A DNA stretch of 63,270 bases. Origin: Elusimicrobia bacterium CG_4_9_14_3_um_filter_62_55. GTDB taxonomy: Bacteria > Elusimicrobiota > Elusimicrobia > UBA1565. Of this stretch, positions 8,770 through 57,028 are shown piece by piece; position 1 is the stretch's first letter; each line of letters begins with the position of its first letter. The position numbers and the translations under genes were made by a program. Location: the NCBI GenBank assembly GCA_002790095.1, contig PFUL01000129.1:1-63270 (forward strand), given 5' to 3'. The notes below the pieces were generated by a model. It was not told where the DNA came from. It ran no database searches and saw only the letters and a program-made list of their open reading frames with translations.

Positions 8770-11196
8770 ATGTTCCCGAAACCCTCCGTCCGGGCCAGCC
8801 TCGATCGAGGCTGGATCATCGCCAATCATAAGCTCGTGTCCTTTCACGCCGCATTTTTAACGTCGCTTTTGAGTATTTCCGAAAGCATCACCTCCCGGGC
8901 GGACGTGCTGCGGGAGATGTTTTTCAGCGTCGAACTCCCCCTTTCCTGCGCGATGTGGTACGCGGCCTGGCACGCGAACATCGCGATCCACGAAATGGGA
9001 CATTATTTGGCCGCCGTGCGCACCCACAACCTCCGTTCCGAGTTCCTCGAAGAGGCGCAGGCGAAGCTCGCCGCAGGGTTCGTTGCCCGCTCGTGGTGGC
9101 TCGCGACGATGTTCCTCAAAATCCCCTACGGGGCGTTCCCCGGGGTTTCGAAGGAATCGGGAAGTTTCCATCCCGACGTGAAGTCTCAGAATTTGGCCGT
9201 CTCCGCGGCCGGGCCGCAGGCGAGCAAAGCGCTCGCTTGGGTGACGCTTCCGGCGGGAACCGCGCTCGCGCTGTGGGGACGCTTCGCGTCTCAGGAGGCG
9301 GTCGTCTATTTTGGACGATTCCTCTTCACGATCGGAATCGTGGCGCTGTTTGATTTCCTGCTCTCCGATCCCGGCAAGTACGCCGCCTACCGCGAACGCC
9401 TGGATGAGGCCCGCCGAAAAACGGAAGGGGCGCGATCCTCGGCGGCGGCGGATGCGACCGGCGTCAAGAGCGGGGGCTATCGCTGGAACGACGTGAAGCC
9501 TTCGGAACTCAAGCGGAAGCTTCAGGTGCACCGCCTCCAGGAAGTCGAACTCGCCGACGGGCGCTTCGTGTTCGCCCCGTGGGAGTTTCGCAACTCCATC
9601 ATGGGCGGACGCCATACCGAGGAAATGGGCGGAAATCTCAGTTTCCAGGAATTGATGTTTCTTCCCCTGACCGCGAAGGACTATATCGAGGCGCAGCGCG
9701 TCACGAACGCGCTGCAAAGCCGCGTCATCCAAATCATCCAGGATTCCGAAGGGCTGAACTTCGTGGGAATCGGACTGGAAGGCGGCGTCGTCGCGTCCTA
9801 TTCGAAGCGGCCCGACGAACTGCTGCCTGAGGAGCGCGCGCTGAAGGTCGCGGTCCAGGCCATCGAGGAATGCGGTTTCGTCCCCGACCGGGACGTGGTG
9901 CTCGCCCTCGATTCCGCCGCCAGCGAACTCAGTCTCGCCTACCGCGAGAAGACCGGAGAGCACCGCTCCATCGGGCAGTACCTCTTCTGGAGAGCTGAAG
10001 ATCCGAAAGTGATGTCGACCGATGAGTTGATCGCGCTTTACAAGCGTTGGGTGAAGGAGTATCCGATCGTTTCGATCGAAGATCCGTTCGCCGAGGACGA
10101 TCCCGAAGGATGGAAGTCGTTGATGAAGGAGCTGGGCGACGAACTCCTGATCATCGGCGACGATTTAGTCACGACGAAGGATTCGACGATCGCGCGCGCG
10201 GCCAAAGAGGGTCTGATCAACACGGCGCTGATCAAGGCGAATCAAATTGGAACTCTGAGCGAGACGCTGTTGGCGACCCGAACCGCGAAGGAACTGGGTT
10301 TGGCTCTGGTGGTTTCGCATCGTTCCAAGTCCCCCAACGAAGTGATGGAAGCCGACATCGGATTCGCCGTGGGGGCGCTCGGGCTCAAGTGCGGCGGCGG
10401 CAGCAACACGGAGCGCCTGATCAAATACGGGCGGATCGTGGAGTTGATCGGGTTGGCTCAAAAGGAATCGCATGCGACGCGAAAACTCGACGGGGACCTG
10501 ATCATTTCCGATATCACCGCTCACGAAGAGCCGACCAACGCGGGCATCCCGACGGTGGGCGTCACGGTGCGTCTGGACAACGGGATGAAATTCACGGCGG
10601 CGACCCCCTTGGGGACCTCGGCCGGAACCGACGAGGCGATCCATCTCGTCGACAGCATGATCGAGGAAAACCCGCTGACGCGCAAGTACCCGAAACTCTT
10701 CGAATTCCGCGAAGGCGAGAAAACCTATCGCTTCGCGCGCAGCGTGCGCGCCGACACGATCTCGGCGGAAAACGACGACGAGTTGTCCGGACTCTGGATG
10801 CGCGCCGTGCGCTACGGCGGCAAGGGTTGTCTCAACGCGGTCGCCAACGCCGAAGAAGTGATCGCGCCCCGCTTCCTCGGCAAGCGCCTCTCGGAGTTGG
10901 GCGGACTCGACGAAATCGACCGGGAACTCCTCGCGCTCGAACTCGATCTGGCCGTCAAACGCGGGAAAATCGCGCCGGACGCGAACGCCGAGGAGCGGAT
11001 CGCGGTGATGCAGCGCAAAGCGAACCTGGGCATGAACGCCGTTCTCTCGGCCTCTCTCGCCTTGGGACGGCTGTTGGCCGCGCGAGAAGGGAAGGAACTC
11101 CCCCATATCCTGCAGGAATTGGAGCCGCGGTTGGACCGGAAATTCCTTTATGGATTAAGGACAGAGCCGGCGAAGCTCGAGACCGTCGCCGCTTAA
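8770..11196 (+). CDS. M50-like membrane metalloprotease domain fused to a circularly permuted enolase
   Basis: This 808-residue protein has two parts. Residues 1-205 look like a membrane M50 protease: HEMGH at 74-78, then SAAGP at 145-149, then a hydrophobic segment ending FDFLLSDPGKY (194-204). Residues 260-560 match the enolase barrel, with QE294, E337 in LEGG, D381 in LALDSAASE, E437 in SIEDPF, D464 in GDDL, K489 in LIKANQIG, and H517 in SHRS. Residues 581-785 match the enolase N-terminal domain (IPTVGVTVRLDNG, TPLGTSAGTDEA, RYGGKGCLNAVANAEEVIAP, NAVLSASLALGR), so the domain order is reversed. All main catalytic residues appear present, suggesting 2-phosphoglycerate to phosphoenolpyruvate conversion at the membrane. 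The substrate loop is altered. The 114 bp upstream hold only a short GCAAC/GTTGC hairpin. Confidence 0.85.
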   Translation: MFPKPSVRASLDRGWIIANHKLVSFHAAFLTSLLSISESITSRADVLREMFFSVELPLSCAMWYAAWHANIAIHEMGHYLAAVRTHNLRSEFLEEAQAKLAAGFVARSWWLATMFLKIPYGAFPGVSKESGSFHPDVKSQNLAVSAAGPQASKALAWVTLPAGTALALWGRFASQEAVVYFGRFLFTIGIVALFDFLLSDPGKYAAYRERLDEARRKTEGARSSAAADATGVKSGGYRWNDVKPSELKRKLQVHRLQEVELADGRFVFAPWEFRNSIMGGRHTEEMGGNLSFQELMFLPLTAKDYIEAQRVTNALQSRVIQIIQDSEGLNFVGIGLEGGVVASYSKRPDELLPEERALKVAVQAIEECGFVPDRDVVLALDSAASELSLAYREKTGEHRSIGQYLFWRAEDPKVMSTDELIALYKRWVKEYPIVSIEDPFAEDDPEGWKSLMKELGDELLIIGDDLVTTKDSTIARAAKEGLINTALIKANQIGTLSETLLATRTAKELGLALVVSHRSKSPNEVMEADIGFAVGALGLKCGGGSNTERLIKYGRIVELIGLAQKESHATRKLDGDLIISDITAHEEPTNAGIPTVGVTVRLDNGMKFTAATPLGTSAGTDEAIHLVDSMIEENPLTRKYPKLFEFREGEKTYRFARSVRADTISAENDDELSGLWMRAVRYGGKGCLNAVANAEEVIAPRFLGKRLSELGGLDEIDRELLALELDLAVKRGKIAPDANAEERIAVMQRKANLGMNAVLSASLALGRLLAAREGKELPHILQELEPRLDRKFLYGLRTEPAKLETVAA

Positions 11197-13892
11197 ACCG
11201 CCGTCGGGTCGGGCAGGGTCGAGCCCGCTTCGAGGCAGATCTGCGCGAATTTTTCTTTGGCCCAAGGGGCGGTGTAGTCGAAGAAATCCCCATAGGGCCG
11301 ATCGAGCAGGTCGAACAGCGCGGGCATTTGGGCGTCCGCCCACTCCGGGATCAGTTTCCGCGCCGCGGCGCGGTCGGTTCCCGCCAGTTTCAGCGTCACG
11401 AGATTGCGCGCGGTTTTGGGATCCAGAGGGATTTCCCCCAGGCCGTCTTTTAGAATCTGCTTGCGGGCCCGCGCGACGCGGCGTTCCCCCACGTCGTAGA
11501 GCACACGCATGTACTTTTCGAACAACAGCCATTCGTTGAGAAGCGCGGCCGTTTCCCCGGCGGCAAGCGCCTTCCAGAGAGCGACGCGCTGCGGCGCGTG
11601 GATGAAGCGGCCGAGCATAAACGCCCCCGCGGCGTATCCGGAGCGCCGTTCGGCGCGGCAAAGCCTCAGCGCGGTCTGGAAGAACCGCACCTTGCGCTCC
11701 GGAGCGAGCATCTCGAATACCGTGCTCTGATTCAGATGATCGCCCATGTCGCTTTTGAACACTTCCCGGACGTACAGCTCCTCGCGCCCGTCGAACCAGC
11801 CGTTGACGAAGCGCCGGGCTTCGTCCTTCTCTCCGCGCAGGTCCAGATTGACAAGACGGATGAGTTCCTTGAGCGTCGAAATCTGATCGAGCTTGAGGGC
11901 CCGCACGAGTTGGCAGTAGTACCGGTAGGCGTAGGCCATCTCGGTGAAGACGCGGCGTTCCCGATCGTCGAGATCCGTCGATTCCCCCTTGAGAAACCGG
12001 GCGAAGCGCGCAGGCGTGAAATTCGCGCGTCCCTTGAACAGCTTCTGACGGCGCGAGGACAGCGTGACCCAGTCCCCTTCCGCGAGTTCGAGTCCCTGCG
12101 CGTTCACGAGGCGGTTGTCCTCCGTCAGCGAGACGCCCTCCCGCTCCAGGTTGAGCAGGCCGGGGGTTCCGTAGGTCTGGCAGATCGTGACCAAATGGAT
12201 GGCCGCCGAGGTGAGGCTGACGATGGCGTCCACCTCCCGCATGACGATCGTGTCGGTCGGCAGAAAGGCGCGCTTGCAGAAGCAGACCCGCTCGCCGCGC
12301 TTTTTGGCCTTCATCGCCTCTTCGGCCTGGAAATAGAGTTTGGCGCAGACCGCCGAACTCGGGAGAATCGCGACTCCGGAGCAGAAGACGCTCAGGGTTT
12401 GAAGCGCCCCTTCCGGTATCGAGTCCGATTCCATTTGCTTGACGTGATAGGGCTGAATCAATTCCGCGACCCGCTTGCGGGAGATGACGCCGCTCTGATG
12501 CAAATCGACGACGGAAACGAACGCGGCCCGTCCGGTCATCCCGGTTTCGTTGACCTGCAGCAGGGCGAAGAGTTCGTTGCCGCGGTGGGTTTCGGCCGCG
12601 AATTCGACCGTGACCGGAGACTGGAATTCCTTTTCCAAGGAGTCGGCGAGCGGGGCGAAGTGATACACCGCCGGGAATCCCCTTCTCAGGTCTCGGATGT
12701 CGCCGGAGGCCGTCCGCTGGGTTTCGGCGGTTCCGGTCATGATGTCCTCGCCGAAAATGTTTCTTCCCGTTTCCAGCAGGAAACCCTTCCCCGTTCTCGG
12801 ATTGCGGGTCGAAAACACGCCCGCATAGGAGCGTTCGTCGCGCACGCTGCAGACCATTTTTTGCAGGATCAGCGCCGGGTACTGGCGTTCTCCCCGGGCG
12901 ACCGTAAAGAGCAGATCGCGAAGCCCGTGATACTGCCGATAGCAGAGCAAAGACAGCAGATGAAGCTGGAACAGAGAATCGTCCAGCAGCCGAGGCGCCG
13001 CGGCGCGGATATGATCCGACGCCGCGCGAATGCCTTCGATCAACTCGGCGTCGGAGAGGGCGGTGGAAGGGCCGTCCGCGAGGATTCCGCGCCCCCTCGT
13101 TCCGAGGCAGAGCAGAAGGTTCCTAAGGTTGTTCAGATACATCCGGTCCGCCGCCCGACGCCCGTAGACGCGCGCGAGGGCCGGCAGCGTGCGTTCGCAA
13201 ATTCCCACATTGAGGTAGGTCGGCAGCATGCCGGGGGCGTAGCGGGGCATCGCGCAGCGCAAGGCGATCACCAGAGGATCCGACGCCGATCCGAGCCGCT
13301 GTCCGGTCAATCGCTCCAGGTTTTCGACGGCACGGGCAAGACTTACGTTAAACGAGCGTCTCCGATCCCGGTAGGCTTCGGCGGTTAAAATCGAGAAATC
13401 CGGGACTGGGTAGCCGAGCCGGCTCAAACGCAAAAGGGTCGCGCCTTTATGGCTGACTTCTTCGTCGGGAAAGTCGCGCGAGGTCGATGAGGGGACTACG
13501 AAGCGGTCTTCGAACGCGGGCGCGAGCCTAAACCGCGCGCTGATCGCCTGATAGTGTCCCTCGGTCTCTTCGAGGAGAGACCGGTTCGCGTCGTCGCTTC
13601 CGATCCTGGCGCGTAGAATCCGTTCGAGATGGCCCCGAACGTCCCCATCGGACGCCTGCATGAGGAGCGGAAGGTCGATGTCGCGCAGCCGCATTTCCTT
13701 CCAAACGGAATTTTGGCCGTCCGCCGGGATGAAAGAGACGCGTGCGACGGGTGGAATATACCCGGGGAGTCGGGAACTCCCATCCCTGTTTTGACGGAAT
13801 CGTTGATCGAGGCTGGCGAAGATGCTCCGTTGGGTCGGATAATTCCCGCGGACTTGGACGGACTCGATCGCCTTAAAAAGGAGCTCCGGCAC
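11193..13892 (-). CDS. PPDK/PEP-synthase-like protein with a degenerate phosphohistidine motif
   Basis: This 899-residue protein starts at GTG. Its N-terminal half resembles the ATP-grasp part of pyruvate phosphate dikinase: KGATLLRLSRLGYPVPDFSI, then VIALRCAMPRYAPGMLPTYL, then ILQKMVCSVRDERSYAGVFS. The swivel domain follows near residues 540-590 (LPTDTIVMREVDAIVSLTSA ... TYGTPGLLN). The normal GGxTSHxA sequence reads SLTSAAIH, so the phosphorylated histidine is not in its usual place. The final 270 or so residues do not look like the PEP-binding barrel. It may be an inactive or repurposed relative. Its stop codon overlaps that of the convergent permuted enolase by 2 bp, which makes a PEP-related link tempting but unproven. 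Confidence 0.7.
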   Translation of the reverse strand: MPELLFKAIESVQVRGNYPTQRSIFASLDQRFRQNRDGSSRLPGYIPPVARVSFIPADGQNSVWKEMRLRDIDLPLLMQASDGDVRGHLERILRARIGSDDANRSLLEETEGHYQAISARFRLAPAFEDRFVVPSSTSRDFPDEEVSHKGATLLRLSRLGYPVPDFSILTAEAYRDRRRSFNVSLARAVENLERLTGQRLGSASDPLVIALRCAMPRYAPGMLPTYLNVGICERTLPALARVYGRRAADRMYLNNLRNLLLCLGTRGRGILADGPSTALSDAELIEGIRAASDHIRAAAPRLLDDSLFQLHLLSLLCYRQYHGLRDLLFTVARGERQYPALILQKMVCSVRDERSYAGVFSTRNPRTGKGFLLETGRNIFGEDIMTGTAETQRTASGDIRDLRRGFPAVYHFAPLADSLEKEFQSPVTVEFAAETHRGNELFALLQVNETGMTGRAAFVSVVDLHQSGVISRKRVAELIQPYHVKQMESDSIPEGALQTLSVFCSGVAILPSSAVCAKLYFQAEEAMKAKKRGERVCFCKRAFLPTDTIVMREVDAIVSLTSAAIHLVTICQTYGTPGLLNLEREGVSLTEDNRLVNAQGLELAEGDWVTLSSRRQKLFKGRANFTPARFARFLKGESTDLDDRERRVFTEMAYAYRYYCQLVRALKLDQISTLKELIRLVNLDLRGEKDEARRFVNGWFDGREELYVREVFKSDMGDHLNQSTVFEMLAPERKVRFFQTALRLCRAERRSGYAAGAFMLGRFIHAPQRVALWKALAAGETAALLNEWLLFEKYMRVLYDVGERRVARARKQILKDGLGEIPLDPKTARNLVTLKLAGTDRAAARKLIPEWADAQMPALFDLLDRPYGDFFDYTAPWAKEKFAQICLEAGSTLPDPTAV

Positions 13893-16294: not shown

Positions 16295-18625
16295 TTAGGA
16301 CTTCGCGCGCCGCGCGGCGTGGAAGTCGCGCGCGCGGGCAATCACCCAATCCGCGTAGCGGCGATAGAAGGCCGCGTGCGCGGGGCGAGACAGGAGAGCG
16401 AGATCCCGTTCGATCATCTGAATACGGGCCTGCAGGGCGTGGAGTTTGCTTTCCGTCCCGGTGATCTCGTCGCCCCGGTAGTAGCGAAGCTGTTCGTGCT
16501 TGATGCGCTCTTGGCGCATAAGCCGATAGGTGGCCCGGCGCGCCTTCAAATAGGCCTGCAGGCGATCCCGCCGCCCGACCGCCGCCGCGAGACGGCGTTC
16601 GAGCGAGGCGATAATTTCCCCCGCGTCGCGTTCCGTGACGAGCATCTTCGTGCGCTGGCGACCTCGGTACCAGCGCATGAATCGTGAAAAGTCCCGGCGG
16701 AACGCGCGGTCCGCGGCGTAGAGCGGGTGCCCCTTGCCGACAGAAACGTCCAAATCCCGCGCGGCCATCAAGGCGGTCGTGAGCCCTTCGATGCCGGTTT
16801 CGAGGGCGTAGTCGATGAGACGCCCGTGGTGAAGAAGATCGCTGATCAATCCCGCGAAGATCGGCGCGAATTCGCGGGGAGTCAGGCGCAAATGATTGGA
16901 ATTGATTTGAAAGACCCCGTATTCCGCCTGATAAGAAGACGGTTGACCGTGCCGTCCTTCGTAGACCTCGACGAGCCACGGAATTCCCGTCCGTCCGGCG
17001 CGGCGCTCGAGCGCGTTTAAGTAGGGAGCGGCGGCCCGACTGCGCCGGAGTTCCGCGACGACGGCGCCGAGCCAGGCGGCGTGAACCCCGCGGGCCGGGC
17101 GCAGCGAGGCGGGCAGGGGCGCCGGTGTTCCGGGAATCTCAGGCGGAGCCTTCCTGCGCACCGTCCCGCGTTCGCGCGCCTCGGGCAAGGGTTCGTAGCG
17201 GTCGACGAGGGCTTGGGTCGGCAGCCGCAGGCGGATCTTCCTGCGTGAGGCGCCCTTCTTGTCCGCGCGATTGACCGCCGCGCGGAAAGCGCGGGCTTCC
17301 CTTAATACGCGGCGCGAGAAATCGAGGTACCGATGTCGGCCGACCGGGGTGCGGAGAATCCGGAGATCGCGGCGAACGCGGTGGATTTCGAGTTCCCAGG
17401 AGACGAGAATCTCCTCGCTTGCCAGCACCTCCTTCCCGCGGTACGCGTCGGAGCGGCGCTCGGAAACGCCGAGTTTGCGCAGGCGCTTGAGCGTCGCCTC
17501 GCGATCCTTCAAGTACGCCTCCATTTGGTCGGCGGTCCGCTGGGCCTTGCGCTCCATGCCGCGCAGTTGTTCCTCGAATTTTCGAAAATCGCTCCCGATC
17601 AAAGAGAGCGAATCTTTATACTGCGGCTGGGCGACGAGCATCTTCAAGAAACCTTCGACCGAGGCCTTGAGGCTGCGGTACGCGCCATGGTGGAAATCAT
17701 CTTTGCCCCAGACCGCGCCGAGTTCGCGCACGACCTTGAACTGGGCGATGTAGGCTTCGAGTTCCAATTCGACGCCGTAAAACGGGAGATCTTCGCCCTT
17801 CTGCAGCACGTGAACCAGTTCGTGGATCAGCGCGGCGGCGGCCTTTTCGTCGGAGTCCGCTTTATAACCCTTGGACATCCGAACGACTTCCCAATCGAAG
17901 GTGAAGCTGCCGCCGTCCTCTTCGGCGAATTCGACGATGACGGGTTCTCGTCCGTTGCCTGTGTATTCCTCGACGCGCTGGAGCACCGCGCGGCCCGTTT
18001 TCGATCGCAAAGCGGCGGCGTAGAGCCGGGAGAGGTAGGCGGCGTCCTCGGCGTCGGCGATCTTGAGGTAAGGCGGCAACGCGGCGGAAGGGTCCGCGGC
18101 GAACGCCGGGTCGGCGGCGCTCGGGGCGTTCGCGTCGAACAGCGTTCCAAGCGTCGCTTGGGCCCGTCCTTTGATTTCCACCCCGGCGGCCGCTTCCCGC
18201 AGCACTTCGATCGCCGCCGGGCGCGCGCGGCGGGGCGCGCGTGGAGCGGGAGCGTCCGCGGCGTTGCCTCGGACGGGACCCGCCGCGGGCGCCGGGGACC
18301 GCGGGGCGATGGACGCGTTCGCGCCGGGAGCCGACCGGAGAGCCGGGGCGGCAATCGCGGCGCGAACCGCCGCCGCTGCAGGCGCGGCGATCGCCGAGGG
18401 CAAGGTCAGCGTGGGGAGCGCTCCGTCGGAAAAGAGAGACGGCGCCGCGAGGGGCGCCGTCGGTGAGAGGGAGAGAGCGGGGGCCGAGGGCCCGAGCGTC
18501 GCGGGCGCGGAGCCTGCGCGCGGCACGGTCGGCGCGGAGAGTACCCGCGCCTCGCAAGGAGAGGAGCCGGCAAGCCAAAAGAAGGCAATAAACAGACTTC
18601 GCTGGACGATCCCCGTTCCGATCAT
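16295..18625 (-). CDS. Exported HExxH protein with an internal tandem duplication
   Basis: This 776-residue protein has a signal peptide (about 1-27), an Ala/Pro/Ser-rich stretch to about residue 135, then two related halves. Half 1 holds [20 protein letters not shown] with HELVH at 268-272 and VELELEAY (E290 region), a plausible gluzincin zinc site. Its helical tail includes [16 protein letters not shown] and [12 protein letters not shown]. Half 2 (about 500-776) repeats that tail ([19 protein letters not shown] ... [12 protein letters not shown]), but the HELVH position reads SDLLHHGRL, so the second site is lost. I infer a periplasmic or surface peptidase with one active and one structural copy. 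It is transcribed divergently from glgB across 154 bp. Confidence 0.7.
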
Positions 18626-18779
18626 CGTGGAGGCTATGGTACTTTCTCCCGCCTCGACTCATTCGGGTCGATCGGGTCGAATCTTCGAGGAAATAGGCCT
18701 AGAAGCATTTAGGCCCCCGGGACCGCGCTGCAGCCGCGGCTTTGTCCGGAATTTCATACAATTCTGCGCAGCAGGCGAG

Positions 18780-20690
18780 ATGATGAAAACAACGAAAACG
18801 GGATTATCCGATCAGGACCTATACCTCTTCAATGAGGGCTCCCATGTGCGGCTCTATGAGCGGCTCGGGGCCCGGGTTGTTCGCGAGGGAGCCATCAACG
18901 GGGTGCGCTTCGCGGTCTGGGCTCCCGACGCGGAGCGGGTTTCGGTGATCGGTGATTTCAACGGGTGGAAGGGCGGCGCGCACTCGCTGCACCCACGAGG
19001 CAGTTCCGGCATTTGGGAAGGGTTCGTTCCGAGCATCGGCAAAGGCACGCATTACAAGTACAAGGTGAACTCCCGGTATCGCGGGTATTCGGTGGAGAAG
19101 GCGGATCCGTTCGCGTTTCGCGCCGAGATACCGCCGAAAACCGCATCGATCGTTTGGGATCTCGACTACGAATGGAAGGATCAGGAATGGATGGCGCGCC
19201 GCGGCAAGCTCAACGCGCTTGACGCTCCGATGTCGATTTACGAGGTTCACCTCGGTTCCTGGATGCGTTCCCCCGAGACCCCGGACCTCCCCTTGGGCTA
19301 CCGGGATTTGGCCGACCGGCTTGCCGACTACGCGGCGGAGAACGGGTTCACGCACATCGAATTCATGCCGCTGATGGAACATCCGTTCTACGGTTCGTGG
19401 GGATATCAGACGACCGGATATTTCGCCGCGACCAGCCGCTACGGCACGCCCCAGGATTTCATGCACTTGGTGGACGCGCTTCACGCACGCGGCGTCGGCG
19501 TGATTCTGGACTGGGTTCCCTCTCACTTCCCCGAGGACCAGCACGGCCTCGGCTTCTTCGACGGAACGCATCTCTATGAGCACGAAGATAAGCGCAAGGG
19601 CTTCCACCCCGATTGGAAAAGCCTGATTTTCAACTACGGCCGCAACGAGGTCCGCAGCTTCCTGCTCTCGAGCGCGCTGTTTTGGGTCGAGAAATTCCAC
19701 GCCGACGGTCTGCGCGTGGACGCCGTCGCCTCGATGCTGTACCTGGACTACTCGCGGGAAGCGGGAGAGTGGATTCCCAACGAACACGGCGGACGTGAGA
19801 ACCTGGAGGCGATATCCCTTCTGCGTCGGCTGAACGAGGAGGTCTACAAGCATCACCCGGACGTGCAGACCTTCGCCGAGGAATCGACCGATTGGCCGAT
19901 GGTCTCACGGCCCGCGTACGTCGGAGGGCTGGGATTCGGTCTCAAATGGGACATGGGCTGGATGCACGACACCCTCGAGTACATGAAGAAGGACCCCGTG
20001 CATCGGCGCTTCCATCACAACGTCATCACCTTCCGGATGGTGTACGCCTTCCACGAGAATTTCATTCTCCCCCTCTCCCACGACGAGGTCGTTCACGGGA
20101 AGGGGTCCTTGTTGGACCGCATGCCGGGAGACGGCTGGCAGAAGTTCGCCAACCTGCGAGCGCTTTACGGCTATATGTTCGCCCAGCCGGGGAAGAAGCT
20201 CCTGTTCATGGGATGCGAGTTCGCGCACGGCGCCGAGTGGAAGCACGACTTCAGCCTCGATTGGAATCTTCTCGAACGCCCGCAGCATCGCGGCGTGCAA
20301 TCGTGGGTCGCGGATCTCAACCGCCTGTACCGCGGCGAGCGCGCCCTGCACGAAATGGACTGCGACCCGCACGGGTACGAGTGGATCGACTCCAACGACA
20401 GCGCCCAGAGCGTTTTGAGCTTTTTGAGGTGGCCGCGGGGGCGGCGCGAGGCCGTGGCGATTCTGATTAATTTCACGCCGGTTCCCCGCGAACATTACCG
20501 GGTCGGGCTGCCGTGGGGCGGAGCGTGGACCGAACTGCTCAATTCCGACGCGAGGGAATACGGAGGCTCCGGGATGGGCAACGGCGGCGCCGTAGAGGCG
20601 GGACCCCAACCCTATCACGGGCGTCCGTTCTCGGCGCTTGCGACTTTGCCCCCTCTCTCGGTCGTCTTCTTGAAGGGCCGCGCTTCATGA
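18780..20690 (+). CDS. glgB: 1,4-alpha-glucan branching enzyme (GH13)
   Basis: This 636-residue enzyme creates alpha-1,6 branches in glycogen. An N-terminal CBM48 domain is seen in [20 protein letters not shown] and FNGWKGG. In the GH13 barrel, the nucleophile Asp lies in [18 protein letters not shown] and the acid Glu in [29 protein letters not shown] is diagnostic for branching enzymes. The C-terminal beta domain includes [20 protein letters not shown]. Either of two adjacent ATGs (18780, 18783) could start it, preceded by AGGCGAG. Its TGA overlaps the treZ ATG (ATGA), so the two are coupled. It heads the glucan operon. Confidence 0.95.
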
Positions 20691-25857: not shown

Positions 25858-28800
25858 ATGACGCGTTTGCTATTGGCATTCTGCGTTCTTATCTCCTCTC
25901 TGCGGTTGTCCGCGGCCGCGGTCGTCGTCCGTTCCGTCTCGGCTCCTCTTTCTCCCGCGCTCGGCGCTCCCGCTTTGATCGGAACTTCGGGAAATGCGCT
26001 TTCATTTTCCGCGCCCGCGTTGTCGGTTCCGACGCTCAACACCGGGGCGCTGCCCGTAATTCCGGTGTTGGAATCCGGGACGCAGCCCGCCGCTGCGCGA
26101 ACGGCTTCTCGGACGGTCCCAGCCCAGGCGCAATCCCCGGCGCCCCGGGCGTCAAGGCAGACCCCGGCTGCGCCGGCGTTTAAAAAGCGTCTGGCCGCGC
26201 TGACGCGCGGCGCCGCGCCGCTGGCCGAGGCCGCGCGCGACCGGAACGCAGCCGACGGGGACTCGCATGCCGCCGGTTCCCGACTGATTCGCCTGCTCAA
26301 CGGGGGCGAGGAGAACGAACTCGAGTCCGCGCCGGTTTCCCCCGGAGAACCAGGCTTGTTCAGTCGATTCGGCGCGCGGCTCAAGCAGGCGAACGCCGCG
26401 CACGCGCATTTCGACTTCATGCGGGCCGGCGTGCCGGTGGAGGAGACCGCCCGCGCGGAAACGCCGGCACCGGACCTATCTCCCCGGCAGAAAAAACAGT
26501 TTCGAGTCTACGCGACCGGTGTTTCCGCGGTTAAGGTCGGGATCGAGACCCTCCACTTCGTCGTTCCTTTGCTGCTCCTCTCGCAGTACGGCGCCGCGTC
26601 CTTGGTGGGCGGGCTTTTCGTCGCCTCCGATCTGGCGGGGCTGGTGCTCGGCTGGGCCGGATCGTCTTGGATCGATCGTCTCAAACCCGGCCGCGTGATG
26701 ACCGCTGCGGCGTTAACGCAATTCGCCGCCATCGGGGCGATTCCGGCGGCGTTATGGTTGGGGATGCCGCTCGGGCTTCCCGCGGTGATGGGACTCGTCG
26801 TCTTAAACGGGGCGGCGTCGGGACTCTTCGACATCGCCCGGCGCGCGCAGATGCCGCATCTGATCGGGACCGACGAAGGGACGCTGCGGCGCTACAACGG
26901 CGAACTCTATGTCTGGCGAGAGATCGCGGCGATCGCCGGGGTTTTTGCCGCGGGCGCGCTGCTCTCCGCGACCGGATACCTGGAGACTCTGATTCTCCAC
27001 CCGGCTTTTTACATGATCGCCGGTTATCTCTTCTGGCGCATGACGCGCGGGAATCGGCCGGGCGGCGGGGCCGCGGCGATTCCCGCCGGGCCGAAGGAGC
27101 CGAGCGGGATCAAGCACGCGTGGCGCGAGATCTCGCGAGGCGCGCGCATCGTCATCTCCAACCCGCGCCTGCTGCTCGCGGCCGTCGTCAACATCCCCGT
27201 CCTGACGATCCACAATCTTTTCCACAAGATGCTCGCCGCGGTCTACGCGACCGCGATGCTCGGCAGCCCTTCTTTCGCCGCCATTTTAATCGGCGCGTGG
27301 AATCTCGGGGAATTCGTTTCGGCGATCTACCTGCGCACCCGCGGCCACAAGGAAGGCTCGGCTAAATGGCTGGTGTACGCCGGTTTTGCGGGGATGGGAT
27401 TGTGGGCGATGACCTTCTTCCCTTCGATTTGGGTCGCGGCGCCCATGATTTTCCTGCTCGCAACCGCGACGCTGTCCAATGAACTGGGTCTCGTGTCCTT
27501 TTTCCAGTCCTCCGTGGGGAAAGAAGATGCCGGCGCCGTGAACGGCTTCGTGTACTCCTCGGCCAACGGGCTGTCGATGGTCGCCCTGCTGGCGCTCGGC
27601 TGGGCCTTCGACGCCTGGGGCGTGCCGGCCGGGATGACCGCCCTCGCGGTCGTGATGAGCGGGGTGTCGGTGTTCTACTGGCTCGCGGCGTTGAATCTCA
27701 AACGCTCCGGACGCGATCACCCCTCGGGGCCGGCGGTGAATTCCGCCGATGAGCCGCCGCCTGTTGCTGCAGGTCTGTTCTTGAAGCGATGGAAGCTGTG
27801 GCTGGTCGTCGCCGCGGTTCTCGGGGGCGGACTTTTCGGAGCCCATCAGTATTTCGCGCCCAGGCTCGATCCCGTCACGCCGCCCGACGCGGTGGTGATC
27901 GTGGACAAGTCCCCCTACGCGATGGCCGAGGTTCCAGGCGCCGCGATCGAGCGTTTCGGCGACTCGCCGAGGATCGTCCTGAGCGGCAACAGCTCTGCGA
28001 TTCTCGCCTTTACGATGCGAGCGGATCGAAAGGCCGCCGTCAGCGTATCCGAGGACGGAACCTGGAAGCTGTGGGATTTGGAAAGCGGCAAGGTCTACGC
28101 CCCGGAACATTACCCCGGCAAGGCGCGCACGGCGCTGTTCGCCGACGGCGGCCGCAAACTGATTCTCGTGGACGACGACGGAACCGTCCGAGTTTCGATG
28201 CTGCGCACCGGCGAGTTGCAGACGATCGAGCGGGATCTGGAAGCGGTCCTCTTTGACGCGATCAGCCCGGACGCCTGGCGCGTCGCGGTCGGAACCTCCG
28301 ACAATCAGGTTCACCTCCTGGAAATCGACGGGGCGAAGACGGCGGCGTTCGCCGTCGGGGGGAAAATCCTGGCGGTCGGATCCACCGAGGCGGGCGAGAT
28401 GGTACTGACCAGCAGCCGCGGGATCGTGAAGCTTTGGAAGGTCGCACCGGGACAAGCGCCGACGGTCGTCGTTGAAAAGTACCTTCCGGGACTCAAGATC
28501 AAGGGCAGCGCGCTCAGCCGCTCGGGCGACCGTTTGATCGCGCTGGCGGACATGGCGGGCGATCAGATCGTCCTGGCCTGGCGCTTCGGGACGCAGGAAG
28601 TTCAGATGCTGATGGGCGCCGATTTCGCGGGCGAAGACGCGCCGTTGGCCGCCGTGGCGGCGACGCCGGACGGGACACGCGTCGCGATTCTTGCGAAGGA
28701 CGGGCGGTTATGGACCTGGACCCCCGGGTCGGGCGAGCCCGCGCTCATCGGCAAGGCGGAGTCCGGGGTTCGCGTATTTTTCTCGAAGACCGGGACGATG

Positions 28801-28866
28801 ATCTGGACGGCCGATCAGGCCGGACGCCTGCAGGCGTGGATCATTCCCATGACGGGTTCTAAGTAA
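25858..28866 (+). CDS. Fusion: signal peptide, Ala/Pro-rich linker, MFS transporter, WD40-like propeller
   Basis: This 1002-residue protein has four parts. A signal peptide (about 1-21) is followed by a low-complexity Ala/Pro/Ser region and a charged helix to about 212. Residues 213-610 form a 12-helix MFS permease (ETLHFVVPLLLLSQYG, GLFVASDLAGLVLGWAGSSW, AVNGFVYSSANGLSMVALLA). After another membrane helix (about 645-665), residues 695-1000 form a WD40/YVTN-like propeller with blades such as VSVSEDGTWKLWDLESGKVY and VLTSSRGIVKLWKVAPG. A permease carrying its own exported leader and a large extracytoplasmic propeller is unusual. The substrate is unknown. A TAATAT box lies 6 nt before the ATG. 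Confidence 0.85.
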   Translation: MTRLLLAFCVLISSLRLSAAAVVVRSVSAPLSPALGAPALIGTSGNALSFSAPALSVPTLNTGALPVIPVLESGTQPAAARTASRTVPAQAQSPAPRASRQTPAAPAFKKRLAALTRGAAPLAEAARDRNAADGDSHAAGSRLIRLLNGGEENELESAPVSPGEPGLFSRFGARLKQANAAHAHFDFMRAGVPVEETARAETPAPDLSPRQKKQFRVYATGVSAVKVGIETLHFVVPLLLLSQYGAASLVGGLFVASDLAGLVLGWAGSSWIDRLKPGRVMTAAALTQFAAIGAIPAALWLGMPLGLPAVMGLVVLNGAASGLFDIARRAQMPHLIGTDEGTLRRYNGELYVWREIAAIAGVFAAGALLSATGYLETLILHPAFYMIAGYLFWRMTRGNRPGGGAAAIPAGPKEPSGIKHAWREISRGARIVISNPRLLLAAVVNIPVLTIHNLFHKMLAAVYATAMLGSPSFAAILIGAWNLGEFVSAIYLRTRGHKEGSAKWLVYAGFAGMGLWAMTFFPSIWVAAPMIFLLATATLSNELGLVSFFQSSVGKEDAGAVNGFVYSSANGLSMVALLALGWAFDAWGVPAGMTALAVVMSGVSVFYWLAALNLKRSGRDHPSGPAVNSADEPPPVAAGLFLKRWKLWLVVAAVLGGGLFGAHQYFAPRLDPVTPPDAVVIVDKSPYAMAEVPGAAIERFGDSPRIVLSGNSSAILAFTMRADRKAAVSVSEDGTWKLWDLESGKVYAPEHYPGKARTALFADGGRKLILVDDDGTVRVSMLRTGELQTIERDLEAVLFDAISPDAWRVAVGTSDNQVHLLEIDGAKTAAFAVGGKILAVGSTEAGEMVLTSSRGIVKLWKVAPGQAPTVVVEKYLPGLKIKGSALSRSGDRLIALADMAGDQIVLAWRFGTQEVQMLMGADFAGEDAPLAAVAATPDGTRVAILAKDGRLWTWTPGSGEPALIGKAESGVRVFFSKTGTMIWTADQAGRLQAWIIPMTGSK

Positions 28867-49205: not shown

Positions 49206-52200
49206 TCACCCTCTCTTGCCCGCGGGCAGCGTAATCGCCGCCGCGCTTCCTTCGCCGACTTCGCTTCTGAACTCGAAGCTCCCGCCGTGAGCCGTGGCGA
49301 TGCGCTTGGCGATCGCGACTCCGAGCCCTACGCCTCCGGCCTTGGTCGTGAAGAAGGGGACGCCCACTTCCTTGGCGTGTTCGGGGGGCAAACCGCCTCC
49401 CTCGTCGAGCACTTCCACACGGACCTTCTTTTTTCCGGGAGCCGATGCCCGGACGCGCAGCGTTCCACCCTCGGGCGTCGCCTCGATCCCGTTGATCATG
49501 AGATGCAGCAGCGCTTCCCGGAGTTTGGCAGGGTCCCCCGTCAATTCGGGGAGATTTTCATCGACTTCGATGGAAACGCCGACCCCTAGATCCTCGCAGC
49601 GCTTCGCGATCGCCGCCCGCGCCTCTTCGATCCATTCCGACACGACGACGCGCTCCTCTTCGAGGACGAGCGGACGCGTATACTCCACCAGCTGTTCGAG
49701 ACGCTCGTGCAGATTCTCGATCGCCCGGAGAATCGCTTCCATCGCCCCCCTCTCCCGCGGACGCAGCCAGCGTCCTGAGAGACGGTCCTCGGCCAAACTC
49801 TTGATGATCCCCAGGGGATTGCGGATTTGATGCGCGACCCCGAAGACGAGATCCTTGAGCTCGGTTTCGAAGGCCACTTGCGGCAGTCGGCCGCTTTCCG
49901 CCTCGGGTTTGAGGCCTTCGACGAGACGGTTGCGAAGTTCCGAGAGCTCCGCTTCGCGGCGTCGCAATTCGGCCTCGCGGCGAGTCGCCTTCTCCTCCGC
50001 GCGAGCCGTTTCCTGCTCGCGGCTCTCGAGTTCCCGCTCTTTTTGCGCGAATCGTTCGGCGATCTCGTGGCTCACATCCTCTTCACGCGCGGCGACGCCG
50101 CGCTCGCGTGCTTCCAGCGCGGCTTCCCGCCGCCGCACCCGTTCGCGTTCGCTTTCAAGCTCGGCCTGCAGTTCTTCACCGCGAGAGCGCAAGGACTCTT
50201 CGAGGCGATCCGCGGCGCGGCGCTCCAGCTCCTCGCGCTTCGCTTCGATTTCCGCCTGCAGACGCTCCCGGTCCGCGGTGAGGATTCGCCGGTTTTCCTC
50301 GGCAACGGCGGTTTCCCGGGAGGCGAGCGTCTCGCGCATTTCCCGCTCCAGCTCCCGCTTACGTTCCACGCTCCGTTCCTCGTCGGCCCGGCGCTGTTCG
50401 CGCAGCAAAGAGCGCTCCTCTTCCAGCCGGATTTCGAGGTCCTTCTCCATCGCGTTGCGCTGCTCCTGCGCTTCGGCCTCGAGCGATTCGCGGCGCTTGC
50501 GAACCTGAGATTCAAGCGCCTCGGCGTGCCGCGCGAGTTCCTCTTCCTTTTCCGCCATACGGCGGCGCATCGCTTCGTCGCGTTCCCGAAGTTCGGTTTC
50601 GTAGCGCACCCGCTCTTCCCGGCTCACGCGGCGCCGGAGCGCTTCCTCACGGCGTTCGAATTCTTTGCGAAGAGCCGCGCGTTCGAGCTCCAGGCGCTCC
50701 TCCCGCCGCTGCAGTTCCTCATCGAGAGCCTTCTGCATCTCTTCGGAGGAGGACTTGAGCCCCGTTCGATTCCGTTCCTGCGCTGCGGCCACTTGGAGCA
50801 GGAGTTCCTTTTCCCGCTCCTTCCAGGACTCCTGCATGCGCTCTCCTTCGGCGAGGTGCTCCCGCTGCAGTCCCGTTTCCCGTTCCCGGAAATCGCGTTC
50901 CAGTTCCGCTTTGCGCGCGTCCAGCGCCGCGCGGGCGCGATTGAGTTCCTCGCGTTCCTTCGCGGAGGCGGCCCGCAGTTCACTTCGCTCCACTTCGAAT
51001 TCCCGTTCGCGTTTCGCCATCTGCTCTCGGAGCGCGGATTCCTTTTTGGAGAAGTCCTCGCGGAGTTCCGCTTCCCGTTCCTTGAGCCGCGCGCGGGCCT
51101 CCTCGAGTTCCCGGTCGACCGCGACCTTCGCTTCGCTCCATTCCGCGCGGAGGGCTTCCCGCGCTTTCTCGTGGCGCGCGGCCCCTTCCGCCTCGGCCGC
51201 GTCGAAGGCTTTGCGCATTTGAGCCTCGCGTTCGAGCATCGACTTCTCGAGCGCGGATTCTTTGTCGCGGAAGCTGCGCAGCAATTCGTTCTTGGCGCGC
51301 TCCAAATCCCGTCCTGATTTCTGCAGCGCGGCTTCGCGTTCCGCCGCGGCGCGATCCAGTTCGGCTTGTCGTTCGCGAAACACGCCTTCAAGCTCCTCGC
51401 GCCGCCGTTCGAGATCCGCGTCCAGCCCCGCGCGTTCCGATTCGAGCGCCTGAAGCTTTTCCTCGTATTCCCTGCGGCGCTTCTCGAGTTCCGCCCCCGC
51501 CTCCGCGCGCTCGCGCTCGGCGGCTTCCCGAAACTCCTCCTCGCGAGACGCCAGTTCCCGACGCAGCGCGTCCGCTTCCTTCGCCGCCGCTTTTTTGATC
51601 TCGGCTTCCCGGCGCGCGAGCGTGTCGCTAAGCCGCTGCCGCGCCGCGTCGAATTCCAAGCGCTTGCGTTCCGTCTCCTCCTGGCGCCTGCGGTCCTCGG
51701 ACTCCAGTTTCCGCTTCTCCTCCTCCAAAGCGGCCTGCTCGGCTTTGACGGACTCCAGGAGTTCCGCTTCGCGCCGTGAAAGCGACGCGCGCTGCTCCTG
51801 TTCGCGCCGCTCTGCGACGGCTTCCAGTTCGCGTTCCTTCTCTTCCATCGCGCGGGCCCGTTCTTCGAACTCGCGTTCGTATTCCCGGAGCCGTCCCGCC
51901 ATTTCCGCCTTGGATTCGGCCAGTTCCCGCTCGCCCTGTTCCTTCCTCCGGGCCGCCTCTTCCTGGATCTCGCGCCGCTCCCGCTGCAGCCGCTGGTTTT
52001 GTTCGGCCTCTCGCTGCGCCGCCGCGGAGCGAAGTTCGTCCTCGCGGGCCGCCGCCGCTTTTTCGAGTTCGTCTTTGCGCTGAATCAAACGCCGCTCTTC
52101 GGCGGCCTGGCTTTCGCTGAGCGCCCGTTCGCGCTTGTGCAGTTCTTCGAGGCGCCTCTCGTGCTCCTTTTTGAGACCCGCTTCGCGCTTTTCGAATTCA

Positions 52201-55200
52201 TCCCGACGCCGGGCGAATTCCGCTTCGAGAGCGGCTTTCTGGGCCGCAATCCCTTCCGCGAGCGCTTTCCGCTCGCGGTCGAATTGCTCCTTCGCCGCGG
52301 CCTCGCGCTTCGCCGCCAGATCGCGCAGTTCGGCTTCCTTTTGGGCGAGAACTTTCTCGATTTCCTCAGCCCGCTCCTGCGAGCGCTCCGTCAACGCGGC
52401 GAGAGCCTCGTCGAGTTCGCGTCGTTTCGCGGCGTATTCCGCTTTCTCGCGTTCGGAGGCCGCGTGAATATCCCGTTCATAGCCTTCGAGTTCCGACCGG
52501 CGGATCTCGAGGGTGTTTTCGCGGGCTTCGATTTCCTGGCGCAGCTTGCTTTCGAGATCCCCCGCGAACGCCTGCGCGTCCGCGCGGAGACGGTTCTCAA
52601 GATCCTCAAGCTGTTTCTGCCGCTCGTTGATCTCCCGTTCCTTGGCCTCTTGCCCGGCTTGCAGCCGCCGCCTTTCCGCCGCGAATGAGGCGCGCAGTTC
52701 CTCTTCCCTCGCGGCCAGAGCCGCGCGGGCGTCTTCGCGTCTCTTCTCGAATTCGCGTTCGAGCGCGGCTTCGTTCTGCTTGCCTTCCTTCTCGGCTTCA
52801 AGGCGCAGGGTCTCGATCTGCCGCCTCTTCTGAGCGTACTCCTCTTCCAGCTTGACCCGTTCCCGTTCGAGCGATTCCTCGCGTTCCCTCAGCGCCGCCT
52901 CCAGCGCCTGCTGGTGCTGGGCGAAGGCATTCTGCTGTTCGATGCGCTCGGCTTCGATCTCCTGGGCGCGGCGCTCGAGGCGCTCGTTGTGCTGCAGCCG
53001 TTCCCGAACGGCGGCCTGCTCCCGCTTGCGGAATTCCGCTTCCAGTTCGGTCATGCGCAACGTGCGCGCCTTCTCGAATTCGACCGACTTGTCCTCGGTT
53101 TCTTTTCGCAGTTCCAGCCGAGCGGATTCGAGATCCTTCTCTTTACGTTCGAACTCCAAGCGCAGCGCCGCCGCTTCCTTCTCGCGGGCCAATTCCAGCT
53201 TCCGGCGGCTTTCCTCTTCCCAGCGCGCCTCGCGTTCATTCATGCGTTCGGTGAACGAGCGCAGTTCTGCGGCGAGCCGTTCCTCCGCCTCTCGCTGGGC
53301 GAGTTCCTGGCGGTGCTCCCATTGGCTCTTCAATTCGCGTTCGAGCTGCAGGTAGTTCTTTTGGAGCGCCTCCTCTCTCTCCCTATAAATGGCGTCCAGC
53401 GCCGCGCGCTCGCGCTTCTCTTTTTCCACGGCGGCGACGACGATTTCCTGTTCGCGCCGGCGGAATTCCGCGACGAGCTTCTCTTCCCGGCTCTTTCCCT
53501 CCGCTTCGACGGCTTCGCGCCGAACGTCGACATCGGCGAGACGGCCCTCGAGTTCCTTGGCCTGTTTCGCCAGGGCGCTCTGATGCTCGCTCTGGAGCCT
53601 CGCGCGTTCCTTCGCGAGTTCCCGGCGATGATGGTCGAGCCAAACCTCGTTTTGCTTCTTCAACTCCTCGCGGGCCTGCGCCAGCTTCAGGTTGTAATCG
53701 GCCTCGAGCTTTTCCGAACGGGTCTTGAGTTCGCTCTCCCGAGCGGAGATCGTCTCGAGCATCTCTCCGCGGACGCGTTCGGTTTCGTAGCGCAGACGCG
53801 CCCGATAGGATTCTCGCTCTTCATCGACCTGCGCGATCAACTCGGCCTCGCGCTCTTTCCACTGTTTCTCGAGTCCCTGTTCCGCCGCGAGGAACGCCTG
53901 GTCCAGTCTCGCTTCCTTTTCCCGCATCTTGCGGCGGAATTGGGCCTGCAGTTTGTCCAGATCAAGCCGCTTTTTCTCGAATTCTTCATCCAGAGACTGG
54001 CGCTTGGACTCCAGTGACGCTCGGTGCGCGAGCGCCGCTTCCTGAGTGGTTTGCCGCGCGTTGCGTTCGATTTCGTCTTCGAGCTCCTTGCGGCGGCGAT
54101 TCAATTGCGCGTGGGCTTCCTCTTCAAGAAGCTGATGCTTGTGCGCCCAATCGTCCTTGAGCTGCTTTTCCAAGCTGATGTAGTTGGCGTGCAGCGTCTC
54201 TTCCCGGTCCCGGTACAATTCGTCGAGGGCCTGGCGGTCTCGGATGCCGAGGGCCTGCTGCTCCTCGATGAAGCGCTTCTCCTTCACGCGCCACTCTTCG
54301 GACAGCTCTTCCTCGCGCTTGCGGTAGCGGCTCTCGAGCGCCTCGCGCCGCTGGGCGAGCTGCGCTTCGCGCTGCGCGTGTTCGTTGTTCAGGGTTTCCT
54401 GATGCGCGTGCGCTTGGGCGCGGGCTTGCTCTCCCTCGCGTACCAGCATGCGGCGCTGACGTTCCAGCCAGGTCTGCTTTTCTTCTTCGAGCGCGGCTCG
54501 GTGCTCATTCTTGAGCGCTTCGAGTCGGCTGTCCACGACGGCTTCCTGTTCGGCGAGCGCCTTCGCGTGAAGCTCCCGTTCCTTTTGGTGTTCGGCCTCC
54601 AACGCCTGGATCGTTCGCGAGAAGCCCTTCGCCTGCTCCTCGAGCGCGTCCTGATGCCGGGCGAGATACTCGTTTTCCTTTTCCGTCCAGAGACGTTGGA
54701 GGCGGGCCTCCATTTGGATGTACTTCTCTTCCCGGACTCTTTCGCGTTCCTTTTGGTTTTTCTGCAGAGAGACCCGCTCCGCCTCCCAACCGCGTTCGCG
54801 GCCCTGAAGTTCTTCCCACAGGGCGGTTTTCTCCGTCTTCAGCCTTTCGAACTCCTCCCGGACTCGCTGGAGCTCCAGGTCCTTGGCGGCGAAATTCTGT
54901 TCCTGCGTGATCAGTTCGCTCTGATGCCCTTCGCGAAGTTTCTTGACCCGGAGCTTCCACTCGGCTTCGCGGCCTTCGTGATGCGCCTCGAGCGCGCGGG
55001 CCTGTTGGGCCGTCCGGCGCGCGTGCGTTTCCTTCAGCGCCCGGATTTCCGCCGAATGCTTGTCGGCGCTTTCCGCCTCGCGGGTTTCATAGCGGTCGCG
55101 CAGCTGCGCTTCGAGCCGTTCGAAATCCGTCTTGAGGTTTTCCGCCTTTCGGAACAGTTCCTCTTCCTGCTCCTGACGCCGGCGGTCGAAAGCCTCCTTT

Positions 55201-56852: not shown

Positions 56853-56884
56853 GCGGTCCTCTTCATGTCGGTTCTCCAGGTTGC

Positions 56885-56982
56885 GGCCCCCCACGATGGG
56901 GCCTTGTGCGGCGTCTCTCTCACTCGTTAGTTTAGGTCCGAACGTCCAAATGGCAATACCGCAAGGCGCGCTTTCGCGCGCC
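56885..56982 (-). other. Leader region with two stable hairpins before the giant kinase gene
   Basis: In the 176-bp gap between the two kinase genes, GGCGCGC/GCGCGCC (56965-56982) forms a perfect 7-bp stem with a GAAA tetraloop on the minus strand. GGCCCC/GGGGCC (56885-56903) forms a second hairpin. Neither has a T-run. They may be part of an untranslated leader or uncouple expression of the two kinases. Confidence 0.35.
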
Positions 56983-57028
56983 GCGCGACTCGGCGGGGAC
57001 TGCACTAAGGAAGGATAGGGTGAGGAAA

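Follow-up and report, generated by a model that had tools for sequence, protein, structure and literature searches.

We identified a fusion of an M50-like membrane module to a circularly permuted enolase in a 63,270-nucleotide stretch of DNA (the window) from Elusimicrobia bacterium CG_4_9_14_3_um_filter_62_55. The protein is probably a working membrane-bound enolase, because several bacteria have the permuted protein as their only enolase. There are no activity data and catalysis is inferred; we give an active enolase with this permutation and a membrane tether a probability of about 0.73. Few enzymes of central metabolism are as conserved as enolase, which is ordinarily soluble and has its N-terminal domain first. 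The features of the locus, in window coordinates, are the following.

8770-11196, plus strand: fusion protein consisting of an M50-like membrane module and a circularly permuted enolase (open reading frame, Pfam, homologue alignment, order test)
8770-9474, plus strand: M50/site-2-protease-like module, residues 1-235 (hydropathy, AF2 model, PF02163, hhalign)
within 8770-9474, plus strand: about four membrane helices, near residues 17-38, 55-82, 142-172 and 176-199
within 8770-9474, plus strand: predicted beta hairpin, residues 126-135 (AF2 model)
8989-9003, plus strand: HEMGH at residues 74-78, putative zinc motif, present in every member except one
9205-9216, plus strand: AAGP motif, residues 146-149 (homologue comparison, hhalign)
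9352-9369, plus strand: invariant D195 and D200, closing the last helix; NxxPxxxLDG is absent and these residues may supply the third zinc ligand (homologue comparison)
9553-10467, plus strand: residues 262-566, enolase barrel, which is C-terminal in ordinary enolase and here precedes the other enolase domain, carrying H282, E294, E337, D381, E437, D464, K489, H517, R518, S519 and K540 (Pfam, residue alignment, order test)
10495-11154, plus strand: enolase N-terminal domain, after the barrel, residues about 576-795, carrying S617 (Mg loop)
within 10495-11154, plus strand: insertion of about 45 residues in the enolase N-terminal domain, near residues 630-678
11193-13892, minus strand: convergent partner gene, 899 amino acids, derived from pyruvate, phosphate dikinase (PPDK), with ATP-grasp and phosphohistidine domains and an unknown C-terminal part
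12195-12197, minus strand: codon of the invariant H566 of the partner, aligned by motif with the PPDK phosphohistidine

The open reading frame starts with ATG and encodes 808 amino acids without an internal stop, and its domains follow the order M50-like module, enolase barrel, enolase N-terminal domain. Enolase_C (PF00113) matches residues 270-558 with 187 bits against a cut-off of 21.5, and Enolase_N (PF03952) matches in two stretches from residue 579 onward with 50 bits against a cut-off of 35. The window protein was also scored, in its native order and in a swapped order, with a profile built from 53 conventional enolases. The native sequence aligns in three pieces, covering profile positions 149-348, then 10-60, and then 62-142. 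When residues 567-808 are moved ahead of residues 240-566 the profile segments become collinear, and this test rules out an enolase of normal order. Both the Pfam order and the swap confirm the claim of the initial annotation that the barrel precedes the usual N-terminal domain, and the motifs quoted there were found where it had placed them. The rearrangement is a circular permutation whose new chain ends lie in the linker that separates the two enolase domains, and a linker around residues 560-577 now connects the former C- and N-termini.

The permuted protein has about 37% identity to ordinary enolase in the barrel. It reaches 236.5 bits with TIGR01060, the NCBIfam enolase equivalog, and so misses the 300-bit cut-off. 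The AF2 model of the barrel, based on a 15-sequence alignment, is of low confidence. A Foldseek search with the full-length model was flooded by enolases with low TM, owing to the different domain order and the poor quality of the barrel model.

All twelve catalytic, magnesium and substrate positions are identical in 26 of the 27 permuted proteins compared, including the window protein, for which the initial annotation had stated that nearly all were retained. In window numbering these are S617, H282, E294, E337, D381, E437, D464, K489, H517, R518, S519 and K540, which we take to be equivalent to S39, H159, E168, E211, D246, E295, D320, K345, H373, R374, S375 and K396 of the yeast enzyme, with roles in magnesium binding, substrate binding and chemistry. 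R14 is changed and E20 is mostly changed in the permuted proteins. These are dimer-interface residues of ordinary enolase, and the quaternary structure is therefore probably different. The N-terminal domain loop also carries changes of S36 to L and T40 to A. The one exception among the 27 is a paralogue (L110:2-2959, minus strand) that lacks all twelve enolase positions and has HMxxH instead of HExxH; the two sites were therefore lost together. This double pseudoenzyme keeps many other family positions, and its genome (G602) also carries an intact copy (L109).

The first 235 residues contain four hydrophobic segments with a positive-inside pattern, in which lysine and arginine number 3, 2, 7, 0 and 14 from the N-terminus through the successive loops to the C-terminal side. 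From this pattern we infer that both ends of the module, and hence the enolase part, would be cytosolic. HEMGH lies at the inner end of helix 2 and is followed by the predicted beta hairpin, AAGP, and D195 and D200 on the last helix. HExxH and the two aspartates are kept in all members except the HMxxH paralogue, across 33-73% identity; zinc binding is inferred. NxxPxxxLDG, the usual third motif, is absent from the module, which has only the invariant D195 and D200. Peptidase_M50 (PF02163) gives about 23.6-23.9 bits for the window copy, below the cut-off of 27.2, and matches 15 of 15 members tested with a best E-value of 1.6e-6. In addition, hhalign against five M50 proteins of the window's genome gives a probability of 95% and an E-value of 3.4e-8, with HExxH through GP aligned. 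In contrast, the model of the M50 part (pLDDT 79) has no significant Foldseek match, the site-2 protease mjS2P (3b4r) being second with an E-value of 0.53, and a search of PDB sequences with the M50 profile gave no matches. The relationship to M50 proteases is therefore supported by sequence profiles but not yet by fold. Thus the M50 assignment of the initial annotation stands as far as the profiles go and lacks support from the fold search, and its proposal of membrane tethering agrees with the four helices, the charge pattern and the predicted cytosolic placement of the enolase part.

About 35 genomes share this architecture, from Acidobacteriota, Planctomycetota, Elusimicrobiota and one "Deltaproteobacterium". 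A genome scan found the fusion at 16 loci with 48-73% identity. Five of these carry the label Planctomycetales, Phycisphaerales or Phycisphaerae, one Elusimicrobia and one Deltaproteobacteria, and the rest are Acidobacteria or Terriglobia; a further match (L049) is an ordinary enolase. An HMM search with the M50 part found the family in 3 of 341 genomes of Elusimicrobiota, the window's own phylum, in 11 of 396 genomes in a sample of Acidobacteriota, in 3 of 392 in a sample of Planctomycetota, and in 9 of 60 close relatives of one planctomycete carrier. The permuted enolase family is rare, yet taxonomically wide. In a tree of the un-permuted sequences all 27 permuted proteins form one clade with a support of 1.0 and a long stem. 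The groups within it are Acidobacteria/Elusimicrobiota, planctomycete, long-fusion and divergent members. Both the M50 part and the enolase are under purifying selection, with dN/dS of about 0.08-0.2.

The window is metagenome-assembled sequence, and the initial annotation had allowed that the reading frame might be an assembly join. Since full-length homologues of the same domain order occur in many independent assemblies, the fusion is neither chance nor such a join. An architecture of some 800 residues that recurs across several phyla, with codon-level purifying selection acting on the fusion, leaves practically no room for an assembly or binning artefact that fused two genes. Origins in a phage, a plasmid or a defence system were also discarded: no viral relative was found, no plasmid record covered 80% of the query, and PADLOC gave no match to a defence system. 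Three irregular or unusual copies were seen. One (L044:8001-10259) lacks about 50 residues in the enolase N-terminal domain after RYGGKGCL, by deletion or assembly error; a planctomycete copy (L048:1379-3774) lies in two frames, owing to a frameshift or a sequencing error; and a divergent permuted enolase (L108:3417-7492) adjoins a convergent conventional eno, both apparently intact.

The relation of the permuted gene to conventional eno differs among carriers. The search for eno suggested by the initial annotation found one in the window's genome (C101:23578-24417, 399 bits), and most acidobacterial carriers also keep a conventional eno. In these many carriers the permuted copy is therefore not the sole enolase. 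Among 60 relatives of one planctomycete carrier, however, conventional eno is present in none of the nine genomes with the permuted enolase versus 44 of the 51 others (Fisher p about 8e-7, not corrected for relatedness). Phosphoglycerate kinase is present in 11 of 12 carriers without conventional eno, so glycolysis is otherwise represented in them. The permuted enolase is likewise the only one in G776, an acidobacterial genome whose contigs are 600-800 kb long. All named carriers are metagenome-assembled genomes, and missing eno could therefore partly reflect incompleteness. In the absence of activity data, the genomes with the permuted protein as sole enolase are the strongest indirect evidence for activity.

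A convergent gene derived from PPDK, which the initial annotation had missed, is found at 10 loci of the window's subtype and is present wherever that subtype was checked, although some copies are broken by contig ends and in one case (L035) two genes intervene. The window's partner aligns to PPDK structures over residues 19-510 with an E-value of 1e-34. There is no match beyond about position 510 of PPDK, and an unrelated region stands where the PEP/pyruvate barrel would be; the protein falls far below the TIGR01828 cut-off. The motif that follows H566 was used to align it with the phosphohistidine of PPDK, and the HMMER alignment places the gap slightly differently. In the long-fusion subtype the permuted enolase and a second PPDK derivative share one frame of 2050-2184 amino acids (L046, L104, L105 and L107), and at L106 this second derivative is a separate gene beside the permuted enolase. 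It matches PPDK 9-340 and the mobile domain with an E-value of 1e-66 and also lacks the barrel. The ATP-grasp region is common to both partner types (hhalign 95.7%). Planctomycete carriers have matches to the partner profile only at the level of ordinary PPDK. The link to PPDK is real by neighbourhood and by fusion, but its chemistry is unknown, and physical or metabolic coupling is inferred.

We propose that the conversion of 2-phosphoglycerate to phosphoenolpyruvate would be carried out by an enolase anchored on the inner side of the cytoplasmic membrane by a four-helix module derived from an M50/site-2 protease. With the chain break moved to the inter-domain linker, the barrel follows the membrane module and the N-terminal domain, which would close the active site, follows the barrel through the new linker (about residues 560-577). 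For cells of one planctomycete clade this protein would serve as the enolase. Where the subtype is that of the window or the long fused one, its proposed place is the PEP node, alongside a PPDK-derived ATP-grasp/phosphohistidine protein whose own PEP-binding barrel has been lost. In favour of activity we count the twelve conserved residues, the order test, the exclusion of eno, phosphoglycerate kinase, the acidobacterial genome with the permuted enolase only and purifying selection, together with a homologue carrying triosephosphate isomerase in frame and the adjacent or fused PPDK-derived partner. Against it we count the retention of eno in many carriers, the changes at R14 and E20, the TIGR01060 miss, the low-confidence barrel model and the restriction to metagenome-assembled carriers.

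The role of the M50 module is less certain than that of the enolase. It may be a dead remnant that only anchors an active enolase, as the weak M50 score (23.9 bits), the missing third motif, the non-significant fold match and the persistence of the HMxxH paralogue would allow. This is possible but doubtful, as HExxH and D195/D200 are kept in all other members over a wide range of divergence, the M50 part is under purifying selection, and the HMxxH paralogue is also without every enolase residue. Alternatively, the fusion could be a regulated intramembrane protease in which the enolase part senses 2-phosphoglycerate or PEP and thereby governs the cutting of a substrate in the membrane. The CBS domain of SpoIVFB, which is thought to sense ATP, offers an analogy. 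HExxH, GP and the two aspartates are invariant or nearly so in very distant members, beyond what a passive anchor needs; no member was found without a fused M50 part, and hhalign matches that part to genuine M50 proteases. However, a sensor would not require all the catalytic residues of enolase, and the protein is the sole enolase in some planctomycetes. NxxPxxxLDG is missing, the fold search is non-significant, and no conserved substrate gene was seen at the loci. We regard a sensing protease as unlikely, and protease function remains an inference. Both of these readings overlap with that of an active enolase, with M50 catalysis the less certain part.

The barrel might also have a specificity that differs from that of enolase while staying within the enolase superfamily, its substrate being a phosphonate, a phosphosugar acid or a product of the PPDK-like partner instead of 2-phosphoglycerate. 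The pairing with PPDK derivatives that lack a PEP barrel, the frequent retention of normal eno, and the loop changes S36 to L and T40 to A together with the 45-residue insertion could be read in this way. All residues that contact 2-phosphoglycerate in ordinary enolase are kept, however, and nine planctomycetes, most of them with phosphoglycerate kinase, have no other enolase-like gene; we regard a changed substrate as distinctly improbable. A more elaborate proposal, which we consider quite unlikely, joins the PPDK derivative without a barrel to the permuted enolase in one membrane-bound PEP machine, where the enolase barrel would produce or retain PEP at the membrane and replace the missing PEP/pyruvate barrel, and the M50 site would cleave a membrane protein in response to the state of PEP or ATP. 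If true, a glycolytic enzyme would have been turned into a membrane signalling or phosphotransfer complex.

The permuted protein shares with enolase (EC 4.2.1.11; PF00113, PF03952, TIGR01060) both domains and all catalytic, magnesium and substrate residues, but differs in its swapped order, its membrane module, its dimer-interface residues, its N-terminal domain insertion and its score below the TIGR01060 cut-off. With M50/site-2 proteases (RseP, SpoIVFB, mjS2P; PF02163) the module has in common HExxH near the inner end of a helix, a beta hairpin after it and the GP motif, but it lacks NxxPxxxLDG, scores below the Pfam cut-off and has no significant fold match. A cytosolic C-terminal domain is present in both the fusion and SpoIVFB, enolase in the former and CBS in the latter. 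The partner shares with PPDK the ATP-grasp and phosphohistidine domains and the invariant histidine, but has an unrelated region in place of the PEP/pyruvate TIM barrel. We found no description of a permuted enolase, of a permutation in the enolase superfamily or of a site-2-protease fusion of this kind in open-access papers; subscription literature and preprints were outside the scope of the search. The chemistry of enolase is known, and it is the topology, the tethering and the replacement that would be new. A natural membrane-tethered permutation that replaces the normal enzyme in a clade would show that the enolase fold tolerates a new chain topology. It would also place a glycolytic step at the membrane and explain genomes apparently without enolase. 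The repeated association with PPDK derivatives suggests a PEP-handling module not yet described, and with an M50 module fused to a glycolytic enzyme a direct connection between carbon flux and membrane proteolysis becomes testable.

Several other observations were made in the window and in related genomes. In an Elusimicrobiota genome (G909, contig C50; L130:7061-16000, minus strand, and L131), a frame of about 3,100 codons with a signal-peptide-like start carries the M50-permuted-enolase unit and, after it, a triosephosphate isomerase domain, which scores 157 bits without a match to the profile's first quarter; further downstream the frame contains a short run of N. Several large proteins of the window's genome, a transporter-like one (25858-28866, plus strand) and two M50 proteins (L122 and L125), have a signal-like start and then a low-complexity stretch rich in serine, alanine, proline and leucine. 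Such starts before a conserved domain are perhaps a habit of the lineage. By eye, an open reading frame near the locus (18171-20690, plus strand) resembles glycogen branching enzyme. A 2599-residue coiled-coil-like protein with a GTG start is encoded at 49206-57005 (minus strand), with a strong AT skew over the gene.
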